Below are positions 20,732-21,738 of a stretch of 30,583 bases of DNA, one piece after another. How positions within the stretch are numbered: the stretch's first letter is position 1; each line of letters starts with the position of its first letter. Source of the stretch: a virus. The stretch lies in IMG/VR virus record IMGVR_UViG_3300020140_000005, positions 1 to 30,583 of that record, one strand, 5' to 3'. Position numbers and translations under genes: made by a program. The notes under the pieces were generated by a model that was not told the origin of the DNA, made no database searches, and saw only the letters and a list, made by a program, of their open reading frames with translations.

Positions 20732-20968
20732 ATGAGAACTAGATTATCTTGGGAATGGGAACAGTTAGATCCTAATACGAGAAGAGCGAAAGTATTTGGT
20801 GGATGGATACTTCATGCTTATACATGTGCTCCTAATACTAGTGATTCTAATCGAGTTAAATGCATTAGTGAAACAATGACTTTCGTGCCTGACAACAATC
20901 ATCAATGGCATATTTTACAGCCTTTAAAAGAAGAAGAAAAAAAACCATCGATCGCGCAGGATTTTTGA
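20732..20968 (+). CDS. Small hypothetical protein
   Basis: A 78-residue protein beginning directly after the previous stop, with GAGAGGATGG as ribosome site inside the upstream gene. It is beta-rich and has six Trp or Tyr residues (W-E-W-E-Q-L, F-G-G-W-I-L-H-A-Y) and two Cys. The resemblance is to small phage proteins of unknown function. It is the last protein gene before the structured-RNA locus. Confidence 0.6.
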   Translation: MRTRLSWEWEQLDPNTRRAKVFGGWILHAYTCAPNTSDSNRVKCISETMTFVPDNNHQWHILQPLKEEEKKPSIAQDF

Positions 20969-20996
20969 ATGATAACCGAGTTTATGGCCAACGATA

Positions 20997-21107
20997 TTTG
21001 CATTTCACGAGTGGACAAAGTGTGAGCCAATGGACAAACTAATTCGATTCTACAGTCGATTAGCCATTATAGAGCGAGATATCATAGGTTCGAATCCTAT
21101 ATGCAAA
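20997..21107 (+). ncRNA. Domain A: tRNA-like cloverleaf with canonical T-arm
   Basis: TTTGCAT (20997-21003) pairs with ATGCAAA (21101-21107) as a 7-bp acceptor. A canonical T-arm, ATAGG-TTCGAAT-CCTAT (21084-21100), abuts the 3' acceptor strand exactly as in tRNA. A weak D-like arm CAC/GTG encloses AGTGGACAAA. The middle arm is over-long: AATGG/CCATT, then CTAA/TTAG and TCGA/TCGA, with 5-base and 1-base bulges and an 8-base loop (21048-21055, TTCTACAG). At 111 bases it exceeds any ordinary tRNA, and no CCA is encoded. It is therefore a tRNA mimic, a degenerate tRNA or a domain of a larger RNA. Confidence 0.6.
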
Positions 21108-21128
21108 GAAAATAGGCCGCCAGTTTAT

Positions 21129-21245
21129 GACAGACTCGGCATTGACAGTGAAATGCTGAATTATCTCAAGGTGAATGCGTAGAGCATCCTAGGCTATGGC
21201 TAGTGCGAAAATTTCACCAAACCGGTGCAATTCCGGTAGTCTGTC
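21129..21245 (+). ncRNA. Domain B: second cloverleaf-like fold
   Basis: GACAGACT (21129-21136) pairs with AGTCTGTC (21238-21245), 8 of 8. Next to the 3' strand lies a T-arm-like hairpin ACCGG-TGCAATT-CCGGT (21221-21237) with a 7-base loop. GCATT/AATGC (21139-21156) occupies the D-arm place. GGTGAA/TTCACC (21170-21218) closes a central arm ending in GCA-CTAG/CTAG-TGC with a 7-base loop GCTATGG. The topology repeats that of domain A although the sequences differ. Confidence 0.6.
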
Positions 21246-21253
21246 AAAGTTTA

Positions 21254-21369
21254 TGGCCTATAATATCGACAAATCATTCAGAACTCAGCGGATGAGATGT
21301 AAAGCGGGATGTAGGAAATGCTGAGCTAATGCCTACATGTGGTGAAGAAGTCTAGGATAAAATAGGCCA
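21254..21369 (+). ncRNA. Domain C: closed domain containing an H-type pseudoknot
   Basis: TGGCCTAT (21254-21261) and ATAGGCCA (21362-21369) close the domain with 8 perfect pairs. Inside, CTCAGC (21284-21289) pairs with GCTGAG (21320-21325), and ATGTAGG (21309-21315) pairs with CCTACAT (21332-21338). The strands interleave, giving a classical H-type pseudoknot with connecting loops of 19, 4 and 6 bases, which is sterically feasible. Confidence 0.6.
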
Positions 21370-21378
21370 CCAGTTTAT

Positions 21379-21442
21379 GCGACAGCTTGAAGAAAAGATA
21401 AACTGCGGGAACTTTCTTCGTATAGCTGTCGCTCCATTTTTT
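21379..21442 (+). terminator. Domain D: long hairpin terminator of the plus-strand transcript
   Basis: GCGACAGCT (21379-21387) pairs 9/9 with AGCTGTCGC (21424-21432). An inner stem GAAGAAA/TTTCTTC (21389-21395 with 21413-21419) extends it above a small internal loop. Four bases later comes T6 (21437-21442). This ends the rightward transcript, and the T-run abuts the stop codon of the convergent gene. Confidence 0.7.
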
Positions 21443-21738
21443 CAACGAGAATATGTACCATCAGGATTCGGTGTTCCCATACTCATCGATTTTTTATCCA
21501 TCCGGTTCATTTGCATTTCATTCTCACGGCCATTATTAGCAGGTTGAGAAGAAGTCGCATTATGATTATAACCGGACATATCGTGATTAGTTACAACACG
21601 ATCTATCGCAATTTTAGCATCATATCTGCGTGGATCTTCACCGCCACCTCGACGAATTGAATCAGCTGAGTCATGCATTGTTGAGGTGTCGGAACGTAAT
21701 TCTTTCATGGGACGGTTTTCATTTACTTTGTTATCCAT
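21442..21738 (-). CDS. Hydrophilic hypothetical protein, probably disordered
   Basis: A 98-residue protein dominated by Asp, Arg, Asn, Ser and Met, with an R-R-G-G-G-E-D-P-R-R-Y-D-A-K segment mid-protein and a Met/Gly/Asn tail. No hydrophobic core is evident, so it is probably disordered or a partner-binding protein. It is the last gene of the minus-strand early operon and ends against the plus-strand terminator. Confidence 0.55.
   Translation of the reverse strand: MDNKVNENRPMKELRSDTSTMHDSADSIRRGGGEDPRRYDAKIAIDRVVTNHDMSGYNHNATSSQPANNGRENEMQMNRMDKKSMSMGTPNPDGTYSR

Follow-up and report, generated by a model that had tools for sequence, protein, structure and literature searches.

Two widespread families of phage RNA modules with conserved frames and variable interiors, found in an array of an uncultured phage

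Three of the four modules in a short RNA array of an uncultured phage belong to two unrecorded, widespread phage RNA families, here called T1 and T2. The frames of modules A, B and C are conserved and covary within their families, the spacer between modules recurs, and the interiors vary strongly. Considering the array, the frames and the predicted processing jointly, we regard the locus as probably a phage array of non-decoding tRNA-like RNAs, a reading held with moderate confidence.

The window, meaning the whole stretch of DNA analysed, is a 30,583-base uncultured phage record whose genes include a head-tail adaptor/portal-type protein, tail proteins, RecT, exonuclease VIII, RusA and O-like genes. 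Within it, the array (20979-21442) lies downstream of a run of small + strand ORFs and faces a - strand ORF. An earlier note on this DNA had described a structured RNA of the phage at this site, where no genes lie, and the present analysis supports that description.

Layout of the array

The four modules occupy positions 20980-21442 of the + strand, and each is preceded by a GTTTAT spacer (20980-20985, 21123-21128, 21249-21254 and 21373-21378). The four AGTTTATG boxes described earlier are confirmed at 20979, 21122, 21248 and 21372 (spacing 143, 126 and 124) and are the only ones on the + strand of the window; parsed via relatives, each box starts with the A that ends ..CCA (or ..AAA), runs through the spacer and closes on the opening G of the following module. 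Among 200 dinucleotide shuffles the best had two boxes within 400 nt, and modules combining a box, a perfect 7-bp stem and CCA/box numbered zero in the shuffles versus two in the window (C and D). The matched flanking block was likewise recovered, as a 21-nt AAAATAGGCC(G/A)CCAGTTTATG recurring at 20 of 21 positions.

Module A (20986-21118) has a T1 frame; its rim score is 39.0 of 45 in a matrix from which the window was left out, where 100 shuffles reached 22.0 at most. It comprises the helix P1 (20986-20989/21115-21118), an internal loop (20990-20996/21108-21114), the helix P2 (20997-21003/21101-21107), a nested T-arm, ATAGG-TTCGAAT-CCTAT (21084-21100), and a G-CCA tail (21119-21122). Module B (21129-21245) has a T2 frame and an AAA tail, with an acceptor (21129-21136/21238-21245), a D-arm (21139-21156) and a T-arm with the loop TGCAATT (21221-21237); a T2 model built without the window retrieves it with 61.5 bits and E=4.5e-16, the model being home-made and its E-values rough. 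Module C (21255-21368) is a T1 variant whose loop has TAT (GGCCTAT..ATAGGCC), with a rim score of 24.4 against the same best shuffle of 22.0, and an A-CCA tail (21369-21372). Module D (21379-21432) is a long hairpin assigned to neither T1 nor T2. It is followed by a T-CCA tail and TTTTTT (21433-21442), together with which it may form a terminator; a simple terminator scan gave no call there. Its segment ATAAACTG (21398-21405) is perfectly complementary to the preceding box CAGTTTAT (21371-21378) and could hide or pair with the spacer.

A perfect closing stem of 7-9 bp had been described for every domain, and this is true of three: GACAGACT/AGTCTGTC in B (8 bp, or 9 with a flanking U-A), GGCCTAT/ATAGGCC in C (7 bp) and GCGACAGCT/AGCTGTCGC in D (9 bp). 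Module A is instead closed by 4 bp of GGCC/GGCC, the 7x7 internal loop and then 7 bp of TTTGCAT/ATGCAAA. The proposed A-B / C-D duplication stands in so far as A and C are of one class (T1), and fails for B and D, which are not of one class. Fold z-scores are -1.4 for A, -3.6 for B, -2.9 for C and -4.2 for D.

A promoter scan gave chance level only, and the flanking genes (20732-20968 and 21442-21738) matched no PHROGs or Pfam family, a result that would also fit an unknown toxin. Just three distant relatives of the upstream 78-aa gene were found, and the T1 and T2 models had no match in their loci. Most of the 36 relatives of the portal gene are without arrays in the DNA examined and only some carry modules (L023, L037 and L045), so the arrays look accessory. 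No conserved neighbour gene was found beside arrays.

The T1 family

We found 58 T1 modules on uncultured phage contigs. Their frame reads GGCC-GACGATA..GAAAATA-GGCC followed by N-CCA, and is built from P1 (GGCC/GGCC), a 7x7 loop (GACGATA/GAAAATA), P2 and a variable interior of 25-111 nt inside the rims; a T-loop is not part of it. TTTAT precedes most of the modules, and N-CCA follows 45 of the 58 at the place of the G-CCA of module A, or 28 of the 42 in which the 3' end was unused in fetching.

Across the 58 distinct sequences, 9 of 10 pairs are doubly changed, and the covariation score is 0.436, compared with 0.174 when shuffled and at most 0.157 when slid. P2, which played no part in the selection, is paired at its first two positions in 58/58 modules in the right register, adjacent registers being at chance. 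Since U-G pairs in P2 exceed A-C mismatches 57 to 11, the strand of T1 is fixed as well. In three variants with TAT for GAC in the loop, module C of the window included, the facing base has also switched to T, and this TAT/T switch is common to module C and two L080 modules. The T1 covariance model did not recover modules A and C, since their interiors exceed those of its training set in length and it does not span them; both were therefore assigned by the rim weight matrix, and C is the weaker assignment of the two.

The T2 family

About 93 T2 modules were found, also on uncultured phage contigs. T2 is a tRNA-like frame with an 8-bp acceptor, two linker bases (mostly CG), a D-arm with a 5-bp stem and the loop GACAGTGA, a variable domain of about 27-190 nt replacing the anticodon arm, and a T-arm with a 5-bp stem and the loop TGCAATT. 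The 8-bp acceptor stem and a T-arm with a 7-nt loop are present in module B and in all T2 modules. Among the 55 T2 modules listed, 41 distinct acceptors occur and five modules have an encoded CCA, module B being among those without.

Searching with nothing but an 18-nt D-arm pattern brought in 71 new loci, and in nearly all of these the model R2, built earlier from other sequences, found T2 matches that were mostly full-length. In an alignment of 74 sequences fitted to the model, pairing amounts to 97.9%, 18/18 pairs are doubly changed and the covariation score is 0.618 versus 0.154 shuffled. An unfitted set of 23, for which the acceptor and T-stem were selection criteria and the D-stem was not, gave 0.462 versus 0.173. 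Covariation among homologues, the lack of which the earlier note had named as one refutation of its reading, is strong in T1 and T2.

Spread and database searches

The contigs bearing T1 and T2 range from about 30 to over 200 kb, and the array-bearing phages found are all uncultured. Modules were located by patterns, so that the counts are lower bounds biased to canonical frames; short frame patterns match many other viral contigs. In the window Rfam gave no match, in agreement with the earlier failure to recognise a tmRNA, intron or riboswitch; GOLLD and ROOL were unmatched at gathering score and up to E=10, and no group I intron, riboswitch or ribozyme model was matched. Four cultured phage records (169-297 kb), a useful negative control, yielded no modules.

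BLAST of the locus, the T1 and T2 frames, the third module class described below and 14 T2 modules against cultured phages gave no credible match; a 23-nt match in Salmonella phage 7t3 was rejected (within a coding gene, E=0.7). The seven matches of GAAAATAGGCCNCCANTTTA in bacterial and archaeal genomes are about the chance number in 257 Gb, an expectation from hand arithmetic, so GAAAATAGGCCNCCANTTTA by itself does not point to a home in cells or prophages. Matches to CCAGTTTATGNCAGNCTNG stand without an array and seem to be fortuitous ones within genes. A literature search found no paper describing the T1 and T2 families.

Interiors and a third module class

The interiors are far less uniform than the frames. 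For 77/93 T2 interiors the set holds no relative, and the other 16 are shared between loci otherwise little alike, sometimes behind unrelated acceptors (L166, L191 and L174; L085 and L204), and payload and frame look as if they were recombining. Loci with common array DNA are mostly alike in nothing else (205 of 243 pairs). On average the interiors fold just slightly better than shuffles. In one cluster of shared interiors a helix is kept via compensatory changes at 4/6 pairs. A third class, with modules about 88 nt long (GGGGAGAGAAGGG..GGCCTCTTCCC), occurs at L009, L073:3626-3713, L079:259-346 and L123, with ~84-92% identity between contigs without other similarity. Given the compensated helix, the sharing between unlike loci and this third class, some interiors, at least, seem to be functional RNAs.

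Link to tRNA genes and predicted processing

ARAGORN and RF00005 called no tRNA gene in the window. Of 92 T2 modules, 12 have a tRNA gene on their own strand at a distance of 150 nt or less (expected 1.15; opposite strand 0). Eight of the modules lie 3-9 nt from the tRNA gene, which is the spacing of tRNA operons. At L122 the order is T2, tRNA-Gln, T2 with a GTTTAT spacer, and at L136 a T2 module stands between tRNA-Asn and tRNA-Gln. The interior of the T2 module at L136:3056-3249 itself matches the tRNA model (RF00005, L136:3104-3222, 36 bits).

Maturation of tRNAs uses a G at +1, a preceding U, a purine discriminator and CCA. Frame and spacer together provide the G at +1 and the preceding U, and T1 also the purine discriminator and CCA. 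E. coli pre-tRNAs are cut apart by RNase E (PMC9841416), and with these features in frame and spacer we consider processing of the array by host tRNA-maturation enzymes likely. From its anatomy, the array would share a transcript with the small-gene operon upstream; RNase P would cut at the G after TTTAT, another endonuclease, RNase E for example, would cut in the A/U spacer, and 3' trimming to CCA would then free separate stable RNAs. Recognition of T1 by RNase P is doubtful, since its frame is without a T-loop. The rarity of an encoded CCA in T2, the missing tRNA gene in the window and the weak average folding of the interiors also speak against the overall reading.

Possible function and alternative explanations

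With low confidence, T1 and T2 may be seen as a general-purpose phage RNA chassis, in which a tRNA-mimicking frame would serve processing and stability and a fast-evolving payload would be swapped between phages. The frame would mimic the ends and elbow of a tRNA, and the variable interior may be a payload acting in trans on host factors, most plausibly as a decoy or inhibitor of a host RNA-targeting defence or of a host regulator. Fast variation inside a fixed chassis fits arms-race targets such as host RNA-targeting defences or regulators. A decoy or counter-defence role is our leading guess and a speculative one: no defence or toxin gene was found linked to arrays, so it is the variability of the interiors that points to it. 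If the chassis proposal is true, phages would possess a modular RNA effector system, with decoy, inhibitor or guide payloads on host targets, beside their protein anti-defence genes.

A rather unlikely alternative is that the frames punctuate polycistronic transcripts, marking cut sites as tRNAs do in animal mitochondria, with the separated mRNAs being what matters and the interiors filler. This would account for arrays lying on the same strand as the surrounding small genes, for single modules often standing directly before a start codon, and for the many weakly folding T2 interiors without relatives. It does not explain tandem modules without an intervening gene (the window; L085), interiors common to otherwise unlike loci, one of them with a compensating helix, or the ~84-92% identity of the third module class between unrelated contigs. 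That the interiors are antisense or guide sequences, with the frame as a carrier for small regulatory RNAs, agrees with highly variable interiors in a conserved tRNA-like chassis, but in at least one shared interior it is a helix, kept up by compensation, and not a linear sequence that is conserved, and we judge this reading unlikely.

The earlier note had read the site as a large structured-RNA locus built from a duplicated two-part module, and one large, unprocessed ornate RNA of the GOLLD or ROOL sort, with the modules as its domains, now seems quite improbable. The phage location, the length of several hundred nt and a whole-array fold z of -2.1 speak for it, as does the frequent occurrence of GOLLD and ROOL near tRNA islands (PMC12286853). 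Against it, there is no Rfam match, every module closes on itself, the modules of the window stand apart from each other, spaced like tRNAs and falling into two or three classes, and other phages have single modules or combine them in a different order or mixture; for these last reasons the one-large-RNA reading is very probably not right. Decaying tRNA genes, which T-arms, acceptor-like stems and odd tRNAs in some arrays might recall, can be dismissed, as decay would break stems, whereas dozens of phages keep the frames intact through compensatory changes.

Comparison with known systems

The closest precedent for a phage array of non-decoding tRNA-like RNAs is the species 1 and 2 RNAs of T4 (rnaC and rnaD), which have been detected as late RNAs with their function described as unknown (PMC9697503). 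They are stable non-decoding phage RNAs (119-139 nt, within a tRNA cluster), as the array modules would be, and in species 1 a long folded interior (z -4.6) precedes the T-arm at its end, CCGGG-TTCGAAT-CCCGG. However, the T1 and T2 models (R1 and R2) had no match on the T4 genome, and T4 has one each of the two species and no family of frames with a GTTTAT spacer. A setting near tRNA genes is seen for 12 of 92 T2 modules and not for the window. T1 and T2 add two families of this general sort; some 150 examples, structures backed by covariation and a clear grammar make their processing and role directly testable. Neither family has a match in Rfam or, as far as BLAST shows, among the cultured phages.

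With canonical phage tRNAs the modules have in common the acceptor stem, T-arm and D-arm in T2, the encoded N-CCA of most T1, the short spacers and, in places, a joint array. Unlike them, T2 is without an anticodon arm, stacks 8+5 bp of acceptor and T-stem and has the T-loop TGCAATT, and neither ARAGORN nor the Rfam tRNA model at its cut-off calls the modules. A tmRNA also has a tRNA-like end with a long insert between its D-like and T regions, but the modules have no Rfam or ARAGORN match to it and their interiors vary and have neither a tag nor a pseudoknot in common. GOLLD and ROOL are phage-encoded and structured, with function described as unknown (PMC12286853), and have the setting alone in common with the array, whose modules are far smaller, have tRNA-like ends and match nothing in Rfam. 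Theta ribozymes of gut phages are structured RNA elements tied to phage tRNA maturation (PMC10879173); they are HDV-like and self-cleaving, whereas no ribozyme family scores above gathering here. Type III toxin-antitoxin RNAs (ToxI-like) and their phage mimics are tandem near-identical repeats, and the array modules are not near-identical.

Related elements in other phages

The tRNA genes of cultured jumbo phages are interspersed with unannotated stretches that are tRNA-like and end in CCA, so the phenomenon seems to reach beyond the T1 and T2 frames. The two families themselves point to further RNAs in the gaps around phage tRNA genes. In Klebsiella jumbo phages (Siatvirus), an unannotated stretch of ~1.07 kb directly after the tRNA cluster (L144:1937-3010; NC_061418.1 182742-183815) ends in a hairpin and a T-rich tail, includes a tRNA-like fold with a 36-nt insertion (L144:2191-2293, RF00005 34.4 bits) and has a 48-nt piece similar to the L085 array; 23S-like strings suspected in this RNA had no rRNA match. 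Erwinia phage pEa_SNUABM_10 has an unannotated tRNA-like element between tRNA genes (L146:1235-1313) with a 7-bp acceptor, the T-loop TGCTATA and an encoded ACCA, and other gaps in that cluster look structured too.

Beside T1 modules, a homologous module occurs on the - strand of L068 and L110 (just before T1) and of L090 (just after T1). Its CTGATGAGAG..CTCGAAA stretch resembles a hammerhead ribozyme core, with no Rfam call in L068 or L090. Near the arrays of L132, L085 and L109, a tRNA-Gln-like pseudo-tRNA (AGAGC..TTTGA/TTTAAA..GCAGGTGNAANNCCTGC) recurs and is a candidate module class.
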